39,203 nucleotides of DNA from a virus. The position numbers and the translations under genes were made by a program. The notes beneath the pieces were generated by a model. The model made no database searches. It was not told the DNA's origin and saw nothing but the letters and a program-made list of their open reading frames with translations. The stretch spans positions 1-39,203 of IMG/VR virus record IMGVR_UViG_3300048835_000081; one strand, given 5' to 3'. Positions 6,238 through 29,415 of this stretch are shown here, in pieces. The first letter of the stretch is position 1. The number at the start of each line of letters is the position of its first letter.

Positions 6238-6447
6238 ATGGAGGAAAAACATATTAAGATGATTGAAAATATTCATGCTGCACTGGTTGGCAATGAATAT
6301 AATGACAAAGGAATTATCAAACGTGTTGAAATTACCGAAACAAAGGTAGATAAGCATGAGTTAGTTTTAAAGATAATTTCCGGAGTGATAATATTTTTAG
6401 TTGGAGTTGTTGCATTTTTTAAGGATATAATAGACATATTCAAATGA
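6238..6447 (+). CDS. XhlA-like small membrane protein, probable holin accessory
   Basis: 69 residues. An amphipathic N-terminal helix (1-43, rich in Glu and Lys) is followed by one transmembrane segment (about 44-61) and a short tail. This is the layout of the haemolysin XhlA type of phage lysis proteins. It overlaps the endolysin gene by 4 bases, which supports a lysis role. I chose the ATG at 6238; a TTG two codons upstream is possible. Confidence 0.6.
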   Translation: MEEKHIKMIENIHAALVGNEYNDKGIIKRVEITETKVDKHELVLKIISGVIIFLVGVVAFFKDIIDIFK

Positions 6448-6938
6448 CACCAATTGAGTTTGTAAAAAAATTCTATCCTTTTGCGTTGGAAGTTGAAAAA
6501 AATACTTCAATACCTGCAATATCAATAATGGCTCAGGCTGCATTAGAATCTGGATGGGGCGAAAAGGCTATTGGAAATAATATTTTTGGCATTAAATTTA
6601 AAAAAGGAGATTGGAGTTCTCAGACTGTTTTAACAACAGAATATTCAAAAGATTCACATGCTTTTGATAGTAAAAATGTAATTTCAAAAATTTTTATAAA
6701 AGAAAAGAATGTTTATCAGTTTAAAGTATGGCAGTATTTTGCAGATTACGAAACACCAAAGGAAGCGTTTATGGCGCACACAAAACTATTATTAACTGAT
6801 AGATATAAACCTGCTTTAAGATGGTGCAATAATCCAAAAAGATACCTTATATCTGTTTGGAGGCTTGGATATGCAACTGATATTAATTACGGTCGCAAAA
6901 TGTGTCAAATGGTAGATTCTATAAAAAAAAGAATATGA
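6444..6938 (+). CDS. Endolysin, GH73-type N-acetylglucosaminidase (FlgJ-like)
   Basis: 164 residues. It matches the glucosaminidase (GH73, FlgJ C-terminal) family: an AISIMAQAALESGWGEKAIGNNIFGIKF block holds the catalytic Glu (E35), followed by a WQYFADYETPKEAFMAH helix and a C-terminal LGYATDINYGRK motif, where GYATD..Y is conserved in the family. It would cut the glycan backbone of peptidoglycan at lysis. There is no signal peptide, so it needs a holin, consistent with the small membrane proteins on both sides. The full family length is present and I see nothing broken. Confidence 0.9.
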   Translation: MTPIEFVKKFYPFALEVEKNTSIPAISIMAQAALESGWGEKAIGNNIFGIKFKKGDWSSQTVLTTEYSKDSHAFDSKNVISKIFIKEKNVYQFKVWQYFADYETPKEAFMAHTKLLLTDRYKPALRWCNNPKRYLISVWRLGYATDINYGRKMCQMVDSIKKRI

Positions 6939-7024
6939 ATCCAGTTTTACTAATTTACATTTGTTGTTTTGCAGCTTTAATAGTTTTTATTGCTGTTTCC
7001 GGTTCTAAAAAAGAAAAGAAATGA
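6935..7024 (+). CDS. 29-aa single-span membrane peptide in the lysis cassette
   Basis: The ORF encodes a short N-terminus, one hydrophobic helix with a Cys-Cys pair, and a basic tail (SGSKKEKK). It overlaps the endolysin stop (ATGA) and its own stop overlaps the next ATG by 4 bases, so all three genes are coupled. A pinholin or lysis regulator is possible but this is inference from position and topology. Confidence 0.5.
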   Translation: MNPVLLIYICCFAALIVFIAVSGSKKEKK

Positions 7025-7227
7025 AAAAGATTTGGCAGAAATTAAACGGTAAAAAAACAGTTATCGGAATAAGTCTTCATGCTGTATGGTTTGTGGCTAA
7101 TATGGTTTTTAAAGACTTTGCAACGATGGACGAAGTATTAACCGGACACGCTTTAATCGGCACGATTACAGGCGTAGGAATCGGACATAAAATAAACAAG
7201 TCAATTGAACGTGCGAACCAAAAATAA
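7021..7227 (+). CDS. Small holin-like membrane protein
   Basis: 68 residues. A basic N-terminus (KKIWQKLNGKKTVIG) leads into a first hydrophobic segment (about 13-30), a short polar loop with FATMDEVLTG, and a second, glycine-rich hydrophobic segment (about 43-57) ending in a basic tail. This resembles small phage holins with a K-T-x-I/W-G start. Its place just after the endolysin fits a pore-forming role. Family assignment is by resemblance only. Confidence 0.55.
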   Translation: MKKIWQKLNGKKTVIGISLHAVWFVANMVFKDFATMDEVLTGHALIGTITGVGIGHKINKSIERANQK

Positions 7228-7231
7228 TTTA

Positions 7232-7239
7232 TAAATTTG
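7232..7239 (+). promoter_or_regulatory. Candidate promoter -7 element (TAAATTTG)
   Basis: It matches the Bacteroidota -7 consensus TAnnTTTG and lies 27 bases before the ATG at 7266. No well-spaced TTTG -33 element is visible, so it is weak evidence. Confidence 0.3.
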
Positions 7240-7265
7240 TAATTTAACATTAAATAATTTCAATT

Positions 7266-7490
7266 ATGGAAGATACAAGAAAAGGATTTTTAACACCCGA
7301 CCAGGAAAAGCAACTCGATGAGCTTATTGAGTTGAAAGGTCTTTATGAAAGCATGGATGGAACGGCGATTAAATTAGCCGATAACATGGTCCTGGAAAAA
7401 TTAAAGGCTAAAATTCCAGAAGACGTTTTGCCGATTGTTTACGAGGTGATTGATGAGGTTTTCAAATCTTTAATTGCTATTTCAGAGTAA
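7266..7490 (+). CDS. Conserved hypothetical protein of Bacteroidota phages, 74 aa
   Basis: An acidic, helical protein beginning MEDTRKGFLTPDQEKQLDEL. I recognise this pattern (TRKGFLTP..E..LD.LI followed by LP.VY..IDE) as a family often found next to lysis genes in Bacteroidota phages and prophages, with no known function. It is the last gene before a strong terminator, so it closes the late transcript. Confidence 0.7.
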   Translation: MEDTRKGFLTPDQEKQLDELIELKGLYESMDGTAIKLADNMVLEKLKAKIPEDVLPIVYEVIDEVFKSLIAISE

Positions 7491-7527
7491 GTATTTGTTG
7501 ATTCATAATGTGTGTTTTAAGTTTAGA

Positions 7528-7555
7528 GGGGCTGTATTGACAGTCCCTTTTTTTT
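7528..7555 (+). terminator. Rho-independent terminator closing the late/lysis transcript
   Basis: Stem GGGGCTGT (7528-7535) and ACAGTCCC (7540-7547) pairs over 8 positions with one G-T wobble, a 4-base loop, then eight T (7548-7555). It separates the lysis cassette from the early region. Confidence 0.85.
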
Positions 7556-7560
7556 GTGCT

Positions 7561-7621
7561 ATTTAGAATGAATATAAATAGTTCTTAATCAATTAAAAAT
7601 AGCTTATTTAGAATCATTCTA
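7561..7621. promoter_or_regulatory. Candidate operator: repeated ATTTAGAAT and a 13-bp palindrome
   Basis: ATTTAGAAT occurs at 7561-7569 and 7606-7614, 45 bases apart. The second copy overlaps a perfect palindrome TAGAAT-C-ATTCTA at 7609-7621. Both lie just upstream of the early promoter -7 element at 7646, a usual place for regulator binding. Confidence 0.45.
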
Positions 7622-7645
7622 TTAGTTTCTATCGACATTTTACTT

Positions 7646-7653
7646 TAAATTTG
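7646..7653 (+). promoter_or_regulatory. Early promoter -7 element (TAAATTTG)
   Basis: It matches TAnnTTTG and follows a terminator and candidate operators. The first early gene starts 44 bases downstream. An upstream TTTC near 7626 is a poor -33 match. It probably drives the run of small genes from 7697 onward. Confidence 0.5.
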
Positions 7654-7696
7654 TTGATATAAAACAATAGAAAAATAACAACAAAAAAACGACATT

Positions 7697-7999
7697 ATGA
7701 AAGAGTTTAAATCAAATTTTCAACAGGTTTCAGAAATCTTAGATAGAAAATCGGTAAAAGAAGTAAAAGAATTATTTCACAGTGATAAATATAATGCTTC
7801 TAATTATTCAACAAACGCTGATATTATTGCTGATTTAGTAATTGAAAACAGCAACGATTTTACAAAAGATATAGCTTCAAGAATGAAAGAAGCCGAAGGG
7901 AAAAAATATTTCTCTGCAAAACAAGCATGGTCTGTTGCTTATCAGGTAATCAATAATATTGAACTTTACAAAGTTGCTTTAATTGAAATGTCTAAATAA
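7697..7999 (+). CDS. First early gene, hypothetical protein, 100 aa
   Basis: A soluble, helical, Lys/Glu/Ser-rich protein without recognisable motif. It is the first gene after the early promoter, a position that in many phages encodes host takeover or anti-defence proteins; that role is only inferred from position. The start follows an A-rich leader ending ACGACATT, the same context as before the helicase gene at 13493. Confidence 0.65.
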   Translation: MKEFKSNFQQVSEILDRKSVKEVKELFHSDKYNASNYSTNADIIADLVIENSNDFTKDIASRMKEAEGKKYFSAKQAWSVAYQVINNIELYKVALIEMSK

Positions 8000-8013
8000 T
8001 AAAACAAAACACG

Positions 8014-8211
8014 ATGAAAACTTTAATTTACAAAATTCACAAAATCGACGAAACTGGAAAGTCGGAATTGGTATTAAAAGGTGATAATGAATTTGAAGTA
8101 AGAAAACAATGGGAAATGCTTATTCCAGAAGATGGGTTTAATTACAATTTATCCTGCGGCTGGGAATTGAACGGAAAATCATTAAGAACTACACTTTTAG
8201 AAGATAAATAA
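8014..8211 (+). CDS. Hypothetical protein, 65 aa
   Basis: A small mixed alpha/beta protein. The N-terminal beta strand pattern (KTLIYKIHKID), the E-F-E-V-R-K-Q-W helix and a C-terminal WELNGKS turn are visible, but I recognise no family. It is 14 bases after the previous gene, in the same early operon, and is followed by a weak hairpin. Confidence 0.55.
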   Translation: MKTLIYKIHKIDETGKSELVLKGDNEFEVRKQWEMLIPEDGFNYNLSCGWELNGKSLRTTLLEDK

Positions 8212-8223
8212 ATAAAACAGGTT

Positions 8224-8249
8224 TCCGGTAATCCTAAACCGGACTTTTT
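8224..8249 (+). terminator. Weak hairpin with T-run, possible early attenuator
   Basis: TCCGGT (8224-8229) pairs with ACCGGA (8238-8243) across an 8-base loop, followed by CTTTTT. The 6-bp stem is GC-rich enough to cause partial termination after the first two early genes. Confidence 0.45.
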
Positions 8250-8253
8250 AAAC

Positions 8254-8274
8254 TTTAAAATTATACATTATGAA
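8254..8274 (+). repeat. 21-bp repeated start context, copy 1
   Basis: The 21 bases at 8254-8274 (TTTAAAATTATACATT, then ATG and two A) recur exactly at 10406-10426. Each copy places the same leader directly before a start codon, so it may be a shared translation-initiation element. Confidence 0.7.
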
Positions 8275-8359
8275 AGCAAAAAATTTACAAATTGATTTAG
8301 CAATTGCAGCAGTAGTTGCAGCGTATCTAATCACAGTATTAACAATCTTAATTTTTTAG
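8270..8359 (+). CDS. 29-aa membrane peptide
   Basis: A short ORF behind the repeated start context. After a polar start (MKAKNLQID) nearly all the rest is a single hydrophobic helix rich in Ala, Val, Ile and Leu. Stop and next ATG (8362) are 2 bases apart. Function unknown; small membrane peptides in early regions can affect host membrane or receptors. Confidence 0.45.
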   Translation: MKAKNLQIDLAIAAVVAAYLITVLTILIF

Positions 8360-8361
8360 TC

Positions 8362-8643
8362 ATGGAACTACAAACTTTAAAAGAAAAGTTCTTTACTGAA
8401 CTAATGAAATGGGTTACTGATTCGCACACAAACCTAAAAAGTAATTTTGATATTTTAGTTGAAGGCACTGAGGACGGTTGCGACTTTTGGGCTAAAGGAT
8501 TCGTAGGCTCAGGTTACGACAACAATGGGAACTTTGAAATTTGGGATTTATCAATCGGTGAATTTGGCATTCAGTTTCCAGATTTTACCGGAAGTTTGGA
8601 TAAGAGATTTATTGAAGAAATTGAAACATTTTGCAAAGAATAA
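8362..8643 (+). CDS. Hypothetical protein, 93 aa
   Basis: An acidic, aromatic-rich soluble protein. A helical N-terminus is followed by beta-rich sequence with GCDFWAKGFVGSG and a C-terminal acidic helix. I recognise no family. It is packed between a membrane peptide and the next gene (gap of 4 bases), consistent with one early operon. Confidence 0.6.
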   Translation: MELQTLKEKFFTELMKWVTDSHTNLKSNFDILVEGTEDGCDFWAKGFVGSGYDNNGNFEIWDLSIGEFGIQFPDFTGSLDKRFIEEIETFCKE

Positions 8644-8647
8644 TATC

Positions 8648-8971
8648 ATGGAAACAAAAAAATTAGGACAAGAACCGGCATTTCCGTTTTTTGAAACAAA
8701 TGCAAGTGGATATGAAAATACTGTTGTAGATACTCCTACGGGAAGATTGTATTTACCATTTCAGTCAGGTATGTCAAAACGCTTTTACGCTGCAATGGGA
8801 TACGCAGATGCCGCAACTGAATATCTAAAAGAATGTAGCGCAAATAATATTCTTGAAATATTAGGATTGCCAATTACAACTGCATACACAGGGACTATTC
8901 ATTATGCACAAGCCCTTGTAAAAATGCAATATATTTTTGCTGATGAACTTTTAAAACAAGAAAACCAATGA
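8648..8971 (+). CDS. Hypothetical protein, 107 aa
   Basis: The chosen start at 8648 follows the previous stop by 4 bases; the reading frame is open further upstream but that would overlap the preceding gene by about 120 bases. The sequence has a PAFPFF start, a TGRLYLPFQSGMSKR segment and helical C-terminal half (AAMGYADAATEYL). I recall similar short proteins in Bacteroidota phages that begin with G.PAFP and contain a GMT/SKR-type motif, function unknown. Overlaps the next gene by 4 bases. Confidence 0.6.
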   Translation: METKKLGQEPAFPFFETNASGYENTVVDTPTGRLYLPFQSGMSKRFYAAMGYADAATEYLKECSANNILEILGLPITTAYTGTIHYAQALVKMQYIFADELLKQENQ

Positions 8972-9174
8972 AAACAGCAAGAGTAAAAGAACTCAATGAA
9001 GTTCTGCAACAAATCGAACGGACTAAAAAAAGTCTGGAAGGTAGCAAGGTTAAATCAGATACTGACTTTGCAGATGCTTACAACATGGGACTACAACACG
9101 CAATTCACATGATTAATATTGACATTATGACAATCGAAACTAAAATAAAATTAATCGAATATGAAAAAATATAA
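8968..9174 (+). CDS. Hypothetical helical protein, 68 aa
   Basis: Almost entirely helical, with heptad-like spacing (VKELNEVLQQIERTKKSL and a second helix ending IKLIEYEKI). It resembles the short coiled-coil proteins common in phage early regions. It overlaps both neighbours. Confidence 0.55.
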   Translation: MKTARVKELNEVLQQIERTKKSLEGSKVKSDTDFADAYNMGLQHAIHMINIDIMTIETKIKLIEYEKI

Positions 9175-9319
9175 AATTGCCAGGTTCTTTGCGGTTTTCT
9201 TTGTTGCCGCTTTTCTGATATCTTTCCGGTATTTCGACAAAGAAGCCGCCGGAATGTTTATTTTGTTCGCCTTAGTTGCGACAATTGCAGGATTTATTTA
9301 CTTTAAACTTGATAGATAA
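9161..9319 (+). CDS. 52-aa two-span membrane protein
   Basis: The ORF begins inside the end of the previous gene and encodes two hydrophobic segments (about 8-22 and 31-48) joined by a short charged turn (FDKEAAG), with a basic start and LDR end. Its stop TAA shares one base with the next ATG (TAATG). Function unknown. Confidence 0.5.
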   Translation: MKKYKIARFFAVFFVAAFLISFRYFDKEAAGMFILFALVATIAGFIYFKLDR

Positions 9320-9717
9320 TGGACACTATAAGACTTAGGACAATGACTGAAAAGTCAATAATCGGATTCGGAAAGTTTACTGATATTTCTGTTCAGAACT
9401 TAATCGACATGAAAAAGACCAGGGAAATAAGATGGATTTATTTTAACTGTTCGATGCTAAGTTTTAAAGATAATATTCTTGATTGGGCTGGAATAACAGA
9501 TGAATATAGGATTGAAAAGCCGGGAACCAACAAAGAATTATATTATCAGCTAAACGATGAAAAGAAAAAGAAATTGTCGGGATTTGCAATTTTGAAAAAA
9601 GAATGCCATACGAGAAAAGTTCTTAAATCAAGAATGAAAGATAACATGCGGGTAGATAAAATCCGATTCAGTAAAGGAAGTTTACAAGCAATTAATCAAG
9701 GACATAAAAAATATTAA
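9319..9717 (+). CDS. Basic hypothetical protein, 132 aa
   Basis: The N-terminus (IGFGKFTDISVQNLIDMKKTREIRWIYFN) has the layout of small domains of the DUF3820 kind (FGK..G..+..L, then R-x-Y-L-x-W), but the match is partial and I do not assign it. The C-terminal half is strongly basic, with many Lys and Arg, suggesting nucleic acid contact. Confidence 0.5.
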   Translation: MDTIRLRTMTEKSIIGFGKFTDISVQNLIDMKKTREIRWIYFNCSMLSFKDNILDWAGITDEYRIEKPGTNKELYYQLNDEKKKKLSGFAILKKECHTRKVLKSRMKDNMRVDKIRFSKGSLQAINQGHKKY

Positions 9718-9719
9718 CC

Positions 9720-9905
9720 ATGCCACGAGAAAGAAAAAGCCCAACAGCTAATCAAAACTGGATTAAAGATGCCAGTTTAAGCGAATGGAAAAAGTCAGCA
9801 TTAAAGACTTTGGAAAAAGTGAAAGAGATTGAAGATTCAGGCAAATATGCCTATGTGAAAATATCGGACACTCCGAGGACGTTTAAACGAATTAAAATTG
9901 AATAA
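9720..9905 (+). CDS. Hypothetical basic protein, 61 aa
   Basis: A small, Lys-rich protein with a central helix (LSEWKKSALKTLEKVKEIE) and a C-terminal beta-like TPRTFKRIKIE. No family recognised. It begins 2 bases after the previous stop and its frame is followed by a YopX-like gene. Confidence 0.5.
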   Translation: MPRERKSPTANQNWIKDASLSEWKKSALKTLEKVKEIEDSGKYAYVKISDTPRTFKRIKIE

Positions 9906-9906
9906 A

Positions 9907-10338
9907 ATGAAAAGAGAAATTAAATTTAGAGGAAAAGTGGAAATCGGAGTTAAAGAACCATTTTGGATTTATGGATATTTAGTCATCTACAACAATAAAT
10001 CAACTATTAATTCATTTGATGAAAATGGGTATCATAGATATACAGTAAATTCAGATTCAGTAGGACAATTCACCGGGCTGCAAGATAAAAACGGGAAAGA
10101 TATTTTTGAAAACGATATTGTGGTTGCCGATTGTGCGCCAAGTGGTTTAAATAAAAGAAGTATTAAAAATCATAAATGCGTAATTGAGTTTGGAGAATTA
10201 CATCATGGTTGGAACTGCCTTATAATAGATCACGAGAAAGGCGAAAAGTGGACTACTGGTTATATGAGTTGGGGCAGAAACGGCAATTCACTTGAAGTTA
10301 TCGGAAACATTTATGACAATCCAGAACTACTTCAATAA
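9907..10338 (+). CDS. YopX family protein
   Basis: 143 residues with hallmark YopX motifs: an REIKFRGK start, WIYGYLV, VGQFTGLQDKNGKDIFENDIV in the centre and EVIGNIYDNPELL at the C-terminus. YopX proteins are common in Gram-positive and Bacteroidota phages; their molecular role is not established. I chose the ATG at 9907, since family members start with M-(x)-R-E-I-K-F-R; a TTG 9 bases upstream is less likely. It is the last gene before a promoter gap. Confidence 0.9.
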   Translation: MKREIKFRGKVEIGVKEPFWIYGYLVIYNNKSTINSFDENGYHRYTVNSDSVGQFTGLQDKNGKDIFENDIVVADCAPSGLNKRSIKNHKCVIEFGELHHGWNCLIIDHEKGEKWTTGYMSWGRNGNSLEVIGNIYDNPELLQ

Positions 10339-10388
10339 AATCAATCAAACAAATCAACATTAATTAACAACAGTTATAAACAAATTAC

Positions 10389-10396
10389 TATATTTG
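10389..10396 (+). promoter_or_regulatory. Promoter -7 element of the recombination operon (TATATTTG)
   Basis: A perfect TAnnTTTG match, 26 bases before the ATG at 10422, in an 83-base AT-rich gap. No clear -33 TTTG is seen at 19-21 bases upstream, so it may need an activator. Confidence 0.5.
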
Positions 10397-10405
10397 TTGA
10401 ATAAA

Positions 10406-10426
10406 TTTAAAATTATACATTATGAA
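10406..10426 (+). repeat. 21-bp repeated start context, copy 2
   Basis: An exact copy of 8254-8274, again placing the same leader directly before a start codon (10422). Confidence 0.7.
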
Positions 10427-11486
10427 TGAATTAGTAAAAGTTGACCCAAAAGAGTACGGATTAGAGGAAAATCAAGTATTAACAATCGAACAGGCTTTCA
10501 TGCCTAAGATTATTGAACGTGATGGATTTGCTAAAGTTTACGAACAGTTAATTACAAAAGAACTGAATCCGTCATTGTGTGGTGAAGCCGCTGAACTTCG
10601 CAAAAAGTTAGTAAAAGTCAGAACCGGAATCGCCGATATTCACAAAACACAAAAGGCATATTTTTTGGCCGCAGGTCGTTTTGTTGATGCTTGGAAAAAC
10701 AAAGAAACTGCACCTATCGAACAGATGGAAGAAAAACTATCTGAAATTGAAAAGCATTTTGAAAGGATTGAAGCCGAAAGAATAATAAAGTTGGAAGCCG
10801 AAAGGATAGCCGAAATTTCAAAGTATTCAGAAATTTATCCGCAAGGTTTGGGTAGGATGGATGAATCGGTTTATACTAATTATTTGGCTGGTTTAAAATT
10901 GGCTTATGAAGCTCGCATTAAAGCAGAACAAGAAGCCGAAGCCGAAAGATTAAGGCTTATTGAAGTTGAAAAAGAAAATGCAAGATTAAAGGCTATTGAA
11001 GATGAAAGAATCAGAATTGAAAATGAACGATTGAAAGCCGAAGCCGAAGCCCGTGAAAAAGCTATTGAAGCCGAAATAAAAAAACAGGCTGAACTTTTGG
11101 CAAAACAAAAATCAGAAGCCGAAGCCCGTGAAAAAGCTATTGAAGAAAAAGCACGAAAAGAACGCGAAGCAGCCGAATCTGAACAAAAACGTTTATTGCA
11201 AATTGAACGCGAAAAACAGGCGAAATTAGAAGCTGAATTAAAAGCTAAACAGGAAGCCGAAGCCGCTGAAATAAAACGCAAACAAGCCGAAGAAAAGGCA
11301 CGTTTAGAATCTGAATTAAAAGCCGCAAAAGCTCCAGATAAAGTAAAACTGAGAAAGTATGTCGATTCACTTGTGATCGAAATGCCGAAATGCAGTACCA
11401 AAGAAGCTGATTTTATTTCAAATGAAATTCAATCGAAATTCGCAGCGTTTAAGGTTTGGGCTGAAAAATTAATTGAAACAATTTAA
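10422..11486 (+). CDS. Long coiled-coil protein of the recombination cluster
   Basis: 354 residues. Residues 1-110 form a helical head, and about 105-305 are an extended, highly charged coiled coil rich in Ala, Glu, Lys and Arg. The DNA encoding it contains a 31-bp direct repeat (11040-11070 and 11115-11145, EAEAREKAIE). A small C-terminal domain (about 305-354) starts after KAPDKVKLRKYV. Proteins of this shape often sit directly upstream of single-strand annealing genes in phages (DUF1351-like or SbcC-like architecture). It may act as a scaffold for the annealing protein 3 bases downstream; that is inference. Confidence 0.75.
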   Translation: MNELVKVDPKEYGLEENQVLTIEQAFMPKIIERDGFAKVYEQLITKELNPSLCGEAAELRKKLVKVRTGIADIHKTQKAYFLAAGRFVDAWKNKETAPIEQMEEKLSEIEKHFERIEAERIIKLEAERIAEISKYSEIYPQGLGRMDESVYTNYLAGLKLAYEARIKAEQEAEAERLRLIEVEKENARLKAIEDERIRIENERLKAEAEAREKAIEAEIKKQAELLAKQKSEAEAREKAIEEKARKEREAAESEQKRLLQIEREKQAKLEAELKAKQEAEAAEIKRKQAEEKARLESELKAAKAPDKVKLRKYVDSLVIEMPKCSTKEADFISNEIQSKFAAFKVWAEKLIETI

Positions 11487-19099: not shown

Positions 19100-19706
19100 T
19101 TTTTCAGAAAATGAAAGTTTGATAAAAAATACATTTATGAAATCAGGTAAAAATTTAATTGGCGAAAAATTCACTGTGCTAAAATGCCAATCTTCAATAA
19201 TTACTGAACTATTAAAATATTTTACCGGAAACCAGTGTATTTATGACTTGAATAAAGGAATTTATTTGTTTGGCATATTTGGGATAGGAAAATCAATGTT
19301 ATTTGAAATAATCAGGAAAACAATTTCAGATTTGGCAAAATTTGATGAATTCGGCAAAAAAATTAATCCAAACGGATTTTTAATAACAAGTTCAGAGCAA
19401 ATAATTGAAACTTATAAACATGACGGAAATCTGGATTATTACGGGTATAGAAAAGAATCAGTTCCTATTGATTTATTGATAAATGAATTTGGTAAAAAGT
19501 TAAATGATAAGATTTATGGTACGGATGCAAACGAGCTTTTAAATTCACTTTTTATGATTAGATATGAATTATTTCAGCGTGGAATTTTAACGCACGTTAC
19601 TTCAAATAGTCATCCTGATAAACTTGATTTGCAGCCTATTTTACTTGAAAGGGCTATTGAAATGTTTAACTTTGTTGAATTGAATGGAGAAAGTTTTAGA
19701 AAATAA
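19023..19706 (+). CDS. DnaC-like helicase loader ATPase
   Basis: 227 residues. Walker A GIFGIGKS (84-91), a sensor I-like TSN (193-195) and the terminal LLERAIEMFNFVELNGESFR, with arginine 210 in the arginine-finger position, match DnaC/DnaI loaders. In the Walker B position the sequence is LLINEFG (NE at 154-155), where the family usually has an Asp before the second acidic residue. It would load the host replicative helicase at the phage origin, since no phage helicase of the DnaB type is encoded. The 77-base overlap with the initiator gene is large but no closer Met exists. Confidence 0.8.
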   Translation: MEKLSQILKEKKWSAGLKFSQVQTIDFSENESLIKNTFMKSGKNLIGEKFTVLKCQSSIITELLKYFTGNQCIYDLNKGIYLFGIFGIGKSMLFEIIRKTISDLAKFDEFGKKINPNGFLITSSEQIIETYKHDGNLDYYGYRKESVPIDLLINEFGKKLNDKIYGTDANELLNSLFMIRYELFQRGILTHVTSNSHPDKLDLQPILLERAIEMFNFVELNGESFRK

Positions 19707-19713
19707 CGTTTTG

Positions 19714-19721
19714 TATATTTG
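19714..19721 (+). promoter_or_regulatory. Promoter -7 element before the candidate RNA (TATATTTG)
   Basis: A TAnnTTTG match 8 bases after the helicase loader stop. A TTTT near 19694 is a weak -33 candidate. It could drive the structured RNA that follows and the gene at 20023. Confidence 0.5.
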
Positions 19722-19912
19722 CGTCTGTGCGGTAATTAAGACGACTATGCCGAAATGCCTAAGCAGACTGGTAGAGCCGCAAAAGTTCAAGGTTTTTAAC
19801 CTTGCCCGCATAGCGCAAGACAGTAGCAGCCCTAAATAGAATGTTCGGCAGGTGTACAACTGATAGCGTAACCGAACTTAAACAGAGGTGCGATTCTGTT
19901 CGGCTGCTATTT
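19722..19912 (+). ncRNA. Candidate structured RNA with tRNA-like parts
   Basis: A GC-rich stretch in an AT-rich genome with many pairings. 3' domain: a 7-bp closing stem AGCAGCC (19825-19831) with GGCTGCT (19902-19908) encloses two 6-bp hairpins, GTTCGG/CCGAAC (19843-19848, 19872-19877) and AACAGA/TCTGTT (19881-19886, 19895-19900). 5' domain: CAAGG/CCTTG around a 7-base TTTTTAA loop (19788-19804) looks like an anticodon arm, after an ACTGGTAGAGC that resembles a D-loop; TGCGG (19728-19732) can pair with CCGCA (19806-19810). GCCGAA (19749-19754) could alternatively pair with TTCGGC (19899-19904). It does not fold as a normal tRNA by hand. Confidence 0.5.
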
Positions 19913-20008
19913 CTTATAACGTGATGCAGCTAACGTCCTCGGTATATGAAAAGTGGCGACAAAAACCAAAACAGATTATTAAATGAACAACAATAGTTTT
20001 TTAAAATT

Positions 20009-20022: not shown

Positions 20023-20571
20023 ATGAGCAAATACATTGAACTTGGAAGAAAATTAAAAGCACTTGCAGAACGTGGGGTTGGTGGTGAAAAATTGAATGCT
20101 GAAAAGATGCTTAGTAATCTACTTAAAAAGCACAACCTGACAATTGCAGATATTGAAGGAGAAAAAACAGACAATTACTTTTTTAAACTGAAAGAAAGTG
20201 AACACCAGTTATGGCATCAGATTGTGAAATCTGTAAATGTTGATATAAAATGCTATGGTGAATTTCCTAAAAAAGATATTAAAAGGCTTGAACTTAAAGG
20301 TAATTATTGCATTCAATCAACACTTTCTGAATATATTGAAATTGAGGCAAAATTTAGTATTTACAACCCGCTTTATCAGGAAGAATTGAACGTATTTTAT
20401 CATGCTTTTTGTACTGCTAATAATTTGGGTATAACGCCAAAAACCCCGATTTCCATTGATGATTTAAGCGTTGACGAACTTAAAACCTACAAAAGAGTGC
20501 TTGAAATGTCTCAGAATATTAAAAGCAAACATTACCGGAAGCAACTAAGCAAATCTAATACTGCTAACTAA
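20023..20571 (+). CDS. DUF2786-like protein
   Basis: 182 residues. Residues 1-45 match the DUF2786 N-terminal pattern: LGRKLKALAERGVGGEKLNAEKML, then LLKKHNLTIADIEGE. The remainder is a mixed alpha/beta domain with DIKRLELKGNYCIQ strands and a helical C-terminus. DUF2786 proteins are found in phages and bacteria, and their role is unknown to me. It is the first gene of the 20-22 kb island and is not coupled to its neighbours. Confidence 0.7.
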   Translation: MSKYIELGRKLKALAERGVGGEKLNAEKMLSNLLKKHNLTIADIEGEKTDNYFFKLKESEHQLWHQIVKSVNVDIKCYGEFPKKDIKRLELKGNYCIQSTLSEYIEIEAKFSIYNPLYQEELNVFYHAFCTANNLGITPKTPISIDDLSVDELKTYKRVLEMSQNIKSKHYRKQLSKSNTAN

Positions 20572-20679: not shown

Positions 20680-20758
20680 GTTACCAAACGTGCCAACTTC
20701 AAAAAAGCACAGAGGTAACAGGTTAGGCGAAATGTTCTTTATTGGCATGTTTGGTAAC
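20680..20758. repeat. Inverted repeat A (17-bp arms, one mismatch)
   Basis: GTTACCAAACGTGCCAA (20680-20696) is the inverse of TTGGCATGTTTGGTAAC (20742-20758) except at one position. The 45-base loop contains GGTAACAGGTTAGGCG, whose GTTAGGC matches the integron core pattern GTTRRRY, though no integrase is present. Confidence 0.8.
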
Positions 20759-20763
20759 GTCCG

Positions 20764-20841
20764 AGTGCTTGGCATTCGTGCCGCCTTGCACTTACTTTAA
20801 GATTAGGCACGCTGTTTCTTGGCGGCATGATGCTAAGCACT
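20764..20841. repeat. Inverted repeat B (about 21-bp imperfect arms)
   Basis: The left arm 20764-20785 (AGTGCTTGGCAT...GTGCCGCC) pairs with the right arm 20821-20841 (GGCGGCATGATGCTAAGCACT) with a few mismatches and one bulge. It immediately follows repeat A and ends at a GTTACCG (20843-20849). Confidence 0.75.
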
Positions 20842-20883
20842 TGTTACCGCCAGTATTTTGATAAACATTTAAAAATTAACGAT

Positions 20884-21072
20884 ATGTCAATGACTAAACA
20901 AGAAATTAAACAGGAAGCTAATAGACTTCGCAAAAAGGCTGATGAATGCGAATATTACGCAACTACATTAACCCACGAACATCAAAAGTCAATGAAAGCT
21001 GAACTGGAAGCAAAAGCCAGAGAACTTCGGGAACTTCAAAAAGAGTATGAACGCCTTTCTTATATGCGGTAA
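20884..21072 (+). CDS. Small coiled-coil protein, 62 aa
   Basis: Helical throughout, with charged heptads (KQEIKQEANRLRKKADECEYYA and KAELEAKARELRELQKEY). The ATG at 20884 follows an A-rich leader; the frame is open upstream into the inverted-repeat region and I do not use that part. Its stop TAA is embedded in CGGTAACGG, followed at once by a hairpin. Function unknown. Confidence 0.55.
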   Translation: MSMTKQEIKQEANRLRKKADECEYYATTLTHEHQKSMKAELEAKARELRELQKEYERLSYMR

Positions 21073-21077
21073 CGGTT

Positions 21078-21097
21078 TGCCACTTTGCGTAGTGGCA
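21078..21097. repeat. Hairpin after the coiled-coil gene
   Basis: TGCCACT (21078-21084) pairs perfectly with AGTGGCA (21091-21097) around TTGCGT. It directly follows the stop codon and a CGGTAAC motif. No T-run follows, so it is not a typical terminator. Confidence 0.7.
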
Positions 21098-21831: not shown

Positions 21832-21943
21832 TTATGGTTGTAACGGGCCGCGTGCATGAACTGAACGCTGTTCGAGTACTCACAGACTTTGATACGAGAA
21901 ATAACCGCTCCTGTTTATGTGCGGGGGCATAACACTAAATAAA

Positions 21944-27993: not shown

Positions 27994-29232
27994 ATGAAAA
28001 AAGAAGATTTTCTTAAGATTGTAAGGTCAAAATCTACAAAAGACCTAACAGAACAGGAACTTTCTTTTTTGGGTTCGATTGGTGAAGCGGTCGAAGGAGC
28101 TTTTCAGGCTGATTCAGTGACCCGAAAGAAAGAGATTGAAGACCTGACAGGAATGTTGGGAACTTTTGATAATGGCGAAAGTGCCGCAAAAGTTATCCGG
28201 TCATTGGCTGCAAAAGTTGATGAAATTGAAGCAAGGGCAAAACGCGGATTCAGCAACGAAGAAAAGTACAAACTTCGTACTTTACTTGAAGGCAAAAAAG
28301 ATGAGATTCAGCGTGCAATGAAAGGTGGCGCACCGTGGGAAATTGAATTTAAAGCTAAAAGAGCTGCCAGTGCTTTAATGACAACTGCAACTGTTTTATC
28401 AGGCGCAAGTGCTGTAAATACTACAAACCTGTTTGATGACATGGATATTGCAGTTTTCCGCTATCCTGCAAATTTCATTATTGACGTTATCGGTGGCGTT
28501 CAGGTTTCAAAAGTTCCTCAGACTTGGCAATGGAAAGAGGAAGGAACAGCAGGTGATGGAGTTCCTACTGTTGTAAGTGAAGGCGCAGCTAAGCCATTAG
28601 TTGATAAAAAATTCATCTGGAAATATGCAACACGCAAAAAGTTTGCAGGACGTGTTGAAATGACCGAAGAAGTTGAAATTGACTTTGAACAGCTTGTAAT
28701 GGATATTACAGCAATGTTTGAAAGGGACGTTATAATCGCTTGGCAAGATTCAGTCTTGGCTGAGATTATCGCATGGGTTCCTGCCTACACAGCAACAGCT
28801 TTGGACGGTACAATAGTTAATCCAACAGTTTACAGTTGCATTGGAGCTTTGAAATTAGCAGTTCAGGTACAGAACTATGAGCCAGACGTTGTATTTTTAA
28901 ATCCGGGTGATGCAGCCGAAGCAATTTATTTGCAGGACAATAGCGGCAATCAGCAGTTTATTCCGGCTGAATTACAGTATGGCGGTTTGCGCCCGATTGT
29001 ATCAAACAAAATTACTGCCGGAACATTGATTGTTGGTTCAAGTCGTTTGATTCAGGAGAAACACTCTAATTTCATTTTACGCAAAGGCGTTCACGGCGAC
29101 CAATTCATCGAAAATGAAAGCACTATTGTTGGTGAAGTTTTCAGTAACTTGAAACTTGCAACTGAATACAAAAAAGGTTGGTGCCAGGGAAGTATTGCAG
29201 TTTTAAAAGCTGCTTTACAGAAAGGAGTTTAA
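27994..29232 (+). CDS. Major capsid protein (HK97 fold, with N-terminal delta domain)
   Basis: 412 residues. The first about 120 form a charged helical scaffold domain (EDLTGMLGTF, AAKVDEIEARAKRGF). The cut site probably lies near KAKRAASALMTTATV. The rest shows HK97 features: VSKVPQTWQWKEEG, the FAGRVEMTEEVEIDFEQL spine-helix region, a P-domain and a C-terminal strand with GWCQGSIAVLKA. It follows the protease by one base. No separate scaffold gene is present, as expected with a delta domain. Confidence 0.92.
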   Translation: MKKEDFLKIVRSKSTKDLTEQELSFLGSIGEAVEGAFQADSVTRKKEIEDLTGMLGTFDNGESAAKVIRSLAAKVDEIEARAKRGFSNEEKYKLRTLLEGKKDEIQRAMKGGAPWEIEFKAKRAASALMTTATVLSGASAVNTTNLFDDMDIAVFRYPANFIIDVIGGVQVSKVPQTWQWKEEGTAGDGVPTVVSEGAAKPLVDKKFIWKYATRKKFAGRVEMTEEVEIDFEQLVMDITAMFERDVIIAWQDSVLAEIIAWVPAYTATALDGTIVNPTVYSCIGALKLAVQVQNYEPDVVFLNPGDAAEAIYLQDNSGNQQFIPAELQYGGLRPIVSNKITAGTLIVGSSRLIQEKHSNFILRKGVHGDQFIENESTIVGEVFSNLKLATEYKKGWCQGSIAVLKAALQKGV

Positions 29233-29235
29233 TTT

Positions 29236-29415
29236 ATGGCTAAGGCAATAAATACAAAGACATTGGTTAATGTAGCTAAGCCGGATTTATCCGGTTTGGT
29301 TACAATCATTGCAACAGGAAAAGCAGTATCAATGAAAAAAGATACTGAGCATAAAGTTACAATGACATTAGCTGAAACTTTGGTAAATAAAGGTTTTGCA
29401 ACATTTAAAAAGTAA
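29236..29415 (+). CDS. Hypothetical protein after the capsid gene, 59 aa
   Basis: A basic, beta-rich small protein (a KTLVNVAKPDLSGLVTIIATG start, then KVTMTLAETLVNKGFATFKK). Such short proteins often follow the capsid gene in Bacteroidota phages. It could be a head decoration or capsid-stabilising protein; no motif decides this. Confidence 0.65.
   Translation: MAKAINTKTLVNVAKPDLSGLVTIIATGKAVSMKKDTEHKVTMTLAETLVNKGFATFKK

Follow-up and report, generated by a model that had tools for sequence, protein, structure and literature searches.

What is the GC-rich, self-complementary stretch that separates two protein genes of this phage, and does it encode an RNA? The window, that is, the whole 39,203-base IMG/VR virus record IMGVR_UViG_3300048835_000081, carries genes for a Terminase_3 large subunit, a portal, a helicase, a methyltransferase and replication, and by terminase the closest named relatives of its phage are Flavobacteriia phages, e.g. 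of Olleya and Nonlabens. The stretch in question (19707-19930) is flanked upstream by an ATPase-like gene ending at 19706 and downstream by the gene at 20023-20571, which is assigned to phrog_421 and is DUF2786-like by inspection alone. The initial annotation had proposed a promoter followed by unusually GC-rich sequence and this is confirmed, as a −7 box is present and the GC content reaches 45.5%, compared with 33.8% window-wide; just 0.4% of the 200-nt windows along the record have an equal or higher GC content.

The full 224-nt span gives a fold z of −1.8, with 7 of 200 shuffles as good, and 100-nt windows out of register with the domains described below do not stand out in folding from the rest of the genome, so that folding energy alone would not have been proof. 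The stretch folds as two separate domains and, in register, each half beats its shuffles (z = −3.5 for the 5′ domain and z = −2.8 for the 3′ domain, folded as 19822-19915; for either one, a single shuffle out of 200 did as well), which bears out the self-complementarity claimed for the locus. The two domains show no similarity to each other, and their origin by duplication was rejected, the alignment being no better than shuffles (p = 0.36). The clean three-way junction that had been described, with a 7-bp closing stem and two 6-bp hairpins, corresponds exactly to the 3′ domain (Table 1).

Table 1. Features of the RNA locus and of the adjoining repeats, in positions of the window
Feature	Position	Strand	Remarks
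Sigma-A type −7 box TATATTTG, within GTATATTTGC	19714..19721	+	matches TAnnTTTG at −12 to −5
5′ domain	19726..19812	+	fold z −3.5 (19716-19822); pair probabilities mostly >0.8
5′ domain closing stem	19726-19732/19806-19812	+	
5′ domain interrupted hairpin	19742-19758/19763-19779	+	contains D-loop look-alike
5′ domain hairpin	19788-19794/19798-19804	+	anticodon-arm look-alike
3′ domain, conserved noncoding RNA, three-way junction	19822..19911	+	homologue in L031; fold z −2.8
3′ domain closing stem	19822-19831/19902-19911	+	
7-bp stem AGCAGCC/GGCTGCT	19825-19831/19902-19908	+	
Invariant core, 43 columns	19838..19880	+	holds hairpin A; identical in both viruses
Hairpin A stem GTTCGG/CCGAAC	19843-19848/19872-19877	+	23-nt loop CAGGTGTACAACTGATAGCGTAA
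Hairpin B stem AACAGA/TCTGTT	19881-19886/19895-19900	+	covarying
Hairpin B GTGCGA loop	19888-19893	+	
TAACG repeats	19940-19957/20661-20678; 20680-20696/20742-20758; ~20763-20787/20822-20842; 21079-21101/21167-21189; 21851-21869/22255-22273		

Searching IMG/VR with a gapped hairpin A pattern (GTTCGGCAGG...GTAACCGAAC) returned one true homologue of the 3′ domain, on the minus strand of the 25-kb viral contig IMGVR_UViG_3300044961_000027 (hereafter L031, positions 9212-9301). The two RNAs are identical at 68 of 75 nt (E 3e-20), and a covariance model built from the window copy alone scores the L031 copy at 76 bits (E 1.5e-15). The RNA is the sole similarity between the two viruses, since tblastx of the whole 25-kb contig detected no shared proteins. 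In L031 the 3′ domain occurs alone, without the 5′ domain, right after a promoter (TTTG-N20-TATATTTG) that ends around 5 nt before the RNA stem and carries the same GTATATTTGC as the window, and directly 3′ of the RNA there is a G+C-rich terminator hairpin, AAAACCCCTCGAATTTGAGGGGCTTA. The L031 copy thus has the promoter and terminator of a stand-alone sRNA, whereas the window shows the promoter only, with no terminator seen in it downstream of the RNA.

How has the RNA changed between the two copies? Changes affect none of the 43 columns over hairpin A and 19 of the 51 columns elsewhere (Fisher P = 2e-6); the core search sequence within the 3′ domain is GTTCGGCAGGTGTACAACTGATAGCGTAACCGAAC. The invariant parts are the 23-nt loop and the stem of hairpin A together with the GUGCGA loop of hairpin B, which in both copies is an 8-nt [GC]GUGCGA[UC], while the stem of hairpin B changes with compensation. 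Indeed, pair 19882-19899 goes from A-U to C-G in L031 and pair 19885-19896 from G-C to A-U, both being compensatory double changes, and pair 19886/19895 has neither of its partners in L031, where the GUGCGA loop is retained. When partner columns are slid by 1 to 3 positions, paired cells fall from 95% to 48% or less; a shuffle control, on two sequences only, is not extreme (112 of 500). With two known members the covariation amounts to one comparison, and the conserved structure with compensatory change is therefore given modest weight. Covariation in the AGCAGCC/GGCTGCT stem had been named as a check; this stem is indeed kept in both copies, but with just one C-G to U-G change, and the covariation sits in hairpin B.

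The −7 box conforms to TAnnTTTG at −12 to −5, which is the consensus determined for sigma-A in Flavobacterium psychrophilum (PMC9723704), and we read the window promoter as a Bacteroidota sigma-A site, having rejected a sigma-70 site; it has no clear −33 element. On the + strand a TAnnTTTG is met roughly every kb, and the window box carries weight because an identical GTATATTTGC directly precedes the homologous RNA in L031. Transcription is predicted to start at around 19726, at the first bases of the 5′ domain closing stem, and the window transcript would probably be about 190 nt long, compared with about 85 nt plus the terminator in L031. A TTGCG/CGCAA extension of the 5′ domain overlaps the promoter box and thus is probably not all transcribed. 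The searches made found no homologue of the 5′ domain, which seems to be an extra piece of about 100 nt lying between the window promoter and the conserved RNA.

What remains of the tRNA resemblance? The letters taken for an anticodon arm and a D loop (CTGGTAGAG and CAAGGTTTTTAACCTTG) exist, but they are confined to the 5′ domain, the part without a homologue. ARAGORN reports no tRNA or tmRNA, in agreement with the view that this is not a standard tRNA. Nothing in the whole window reaches the gathering threshold of any Rfam 15 family, and the Rfam check suggested for the locus, run permissively (E up to 10) with both copies, gave chance-level matches only, no known family and neither tRNA nor tmRNA. 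The isrJ sRNA (RF01393) was treated as one such chance match: the L031 copy obtains 20 bits, partly via its terminator, with a gathering score of 37 bits, and the window copy is unmatched. A D arm, a 7-nt anticodon loop, a canonical T loop (TTCRA) and a CCA are all missing from the conserved domain, and the tag reading frame with tRNA-like domain of tmRNA was not found. The description as tRNA-like pieces, a degenerate tRNA or a tRNA mimic is therefore not upheld. A structured RNA of a new class had also been suggested, and for the 3′ domain this is supported by homologue, promoter, terminator, invariant core and compensatory changes; the 5′ domain, having no homologue, does not share this support.

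We consider it rather probable that the 3′ domain constitutes a self-contained gene for a small noncoding RNA in Bacteroidota phages; this gene would move between phages, and its RNA would act in trans via hairpin A. Its status as a gene is shown, at the level of sequence, by the fold, the promoter context, the homology, the invariant core, the compensatory change and the absence of the RNA at the same locus in related phages; action in trans is what the conservation pattern suggests.

Could the locus instead be a DNA element, such as a replication signal or a recombination hairpin of the attC kind, that merely resembles an RNA gene? Clusters of attC sites in phages have precedent, including in a Polaribacter phage (PMC9892861), the locus borders on a cluster of imperfect TAACG...GTTAYC inverted repeats, and 19704-19724 resembles 21070-21090 (76%). 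However, conservation falls on the 3′ domain and not on the TAACG part, and the L031 copy has a promoter and a terminator and no such end motifs. The integron core boxes GTTRRRY / RYYYAAC are absent at the ends of the L031 RNA, and the neighbouring hairpins of the window end in GTTACC or GTTATC, the former not fitting GTTRRRY. We regard this explanation as unlikely. The chances are slimmer that the RNA is a cis-acting leader of the DUF2786-like gene at 20023-20571, upstream of which it lies by about 110 nt on the same strand with no terminator found between them, since in L031 the RNA is on the opposite strand from both neighbouring genes, ends in a terminator and converges with the downstream gene, and so cannot be a leader there; moreover, homologous genes in the contigs L003 and L004 have no such RNA upstream.

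We give an equally slim chance to a degenerate tRNA or a tRNA mimic that would occupy tRNA-handling enzymes. Like tRNA and tmRNA (RF00005, RF00023), the 3′ domain has a 7-bp acceptor-like closing stem and beside it a T-arm-sized hairpin, adjoined by UGCGA, its length in L031 is about 85 nt, and the phage of contig L004, which shares the downstream neighbour gene, carries 20 tRNA genes; yet, in addition to the negative ARAGORN and Rfam searches and the missing D arm and CCA, a 6-bp stem with a 23-nt loop takes the place of the anticodon loop and the hairpin B loop has 8 nt. Least probable of all, in our judgement, is a short peptide gene. Translation from the ATG at 19841 would begin with MFGRCTTDSVTELKQRCDSVRLLFLIT in the window and with MFGRCTTDSVTELNQRATWSAANL... 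in the L031 copy, the first 13 residues being identical. Against this, not one synonymous change is found across 43 nt, the C-termini of the two copies are unrelated, and the one-base gaps in hairpin B break the only open reading frame (MFGRCTTDSVTEL...) after about 16 codons, yet preserve the pairing of hairpin B and its GTGCGA loop, which argues for an RNA and not for a peptide.

How widespread is this noncoding RNA? Direct searches among phages, plasmids and related viral records yielded no homologue, and nothing matched in 50,697 phage records, in 72,556 plasmids or, with the models, in about 880 Bacteroidota genomes. Plasmids likewise gave no match to a hand-made variant of the element. 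Model R1 recognised no copy in 390 Bacteroidota genomes, and blastn in 395 Bacteroidota genomes gave nothing credible. Of 15 viral records scanned with model R3, only the window and L031 gave the RNA, several of the other 13 being fragments; in two orders (295 and 201 genomes), the same model gave eight matches of 21-27 bits that we took as chance, nearly all lying inside or overlapping protein genes and one in a repeat. Other candidates were also rejected: short blastn matches in Klebsiella phage-plasmids, a Vibrio phage and cyanophages, of which those inspected or annotated sit inside protein genes; the three matches of the pattern AAGCAGACTGGTAGAG, all in coding genes; the sole match of another pattern over genome contigs, a gene in a MAG; and a match in L036, a chance one in GC-rich DNA that R1 does not recognise. 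Relatives with an 82% identical terminase have the same upstream ATPase gene and then no such RNA. This distribution fits a rare unit moving between phages, and a sampling effect is a possible reason for the rarity.

A model of how the noncoding RNA might work would be as follows. The RNA would be read from its sigma-A type promoter and would fold into a closing stem and two hairpins at a three-way junction, and its gene would travel as an independent unit between otherwise unrelated phages. The putative contact surface, formed by hairpin A (with its 23-nt loop) and by the hairpin B loop GUGCGA, would not serve for pairing with one phage mRNA but would meet a conserved host component, the candidates being RNA polymerase, the ribosome and an RNA-binding protein, while the closing stem and the hairpin B stem would merely hold the shape. 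An RNA that a protein or a large ribonucleoprotein recognises in trans typically shows invariant loops on a supporting stem that changes with compensation, and the loops and the hairpin B stem described here would point to recognition of this kind. The longest complementarity of the RNA to either phage genome is 10 nt, about chance level, a result that speaks against plain antisense action on phage mRNA.

Does it resemble known phage RNAs? The phi29-type packaging RNA (RF00044), likewise from a phage, combines a three-way junction with two looped arms, an architecture also seen in the 3′ domain; we take this as a lead only. There is no Rfam match, the large terminase subunit is an ordinary Terminase_3 and the RNA is not beside the terminase. 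Compared with phage-encoded small regulatory RNAs (reviewed in PMC12197685), the RNA is similarly short, structured and intergenic, with its own promoter and, in L031, a terminator; it differs in having no Rfam family match, in coming from Bacteroidota phages and in being conserved in a closed large-loop hairpin and not in a free seed region. More tentatively, judging from the two copies, it may represent a new class of mobile RNA effector that unrelated Bacteroidota phages exchange and that, through the invariant 43-nt hairpin region, would act on a conserved machine of the host, either as a ribonucleoprotein or as a decoy. Phage noncoding RNA genes are hardly catalogued, those of Bacteroidota phages least of all. 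That the sole item common to two unrelated phages has a core conserved letter for letter and a covarying stem would point to a defined host partner, and the 43-nt core provides an exact sequence for searching, expression and pull-down.

The surroundings of the RNA also deserve mention. Between 19933 and 22290 the window has imperfect inverted repeats that start with TAACG and end with GTTAYC, around or after small genes, most of them with an unequal unpaired spacer adjoining the outer box. This cluster resembles a cassette array, although its boxes do not fit the integron GTTRRRY, and few folds in the genome are stronger than the hairpin at 20751-20850 (z −5.8). L009 (1852-1890) has a TAACGGGCTGCGTGTATGG half-site resembling the one at 21841 of the window; it follows the ATPase gene in related phages without the RNA, so the intergenic position may be a repeated insertion site. 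On the related phage contig L004, the tRNA genes occupy both strands of 6392-10462, with tRNA-like stretches uncalled by ARAGORN, e.g. near 7133-7218. By z-score, the strongest fold of the window (−6.2) is at 29251-29350 on the + strand, just after a gene ending at 29232.
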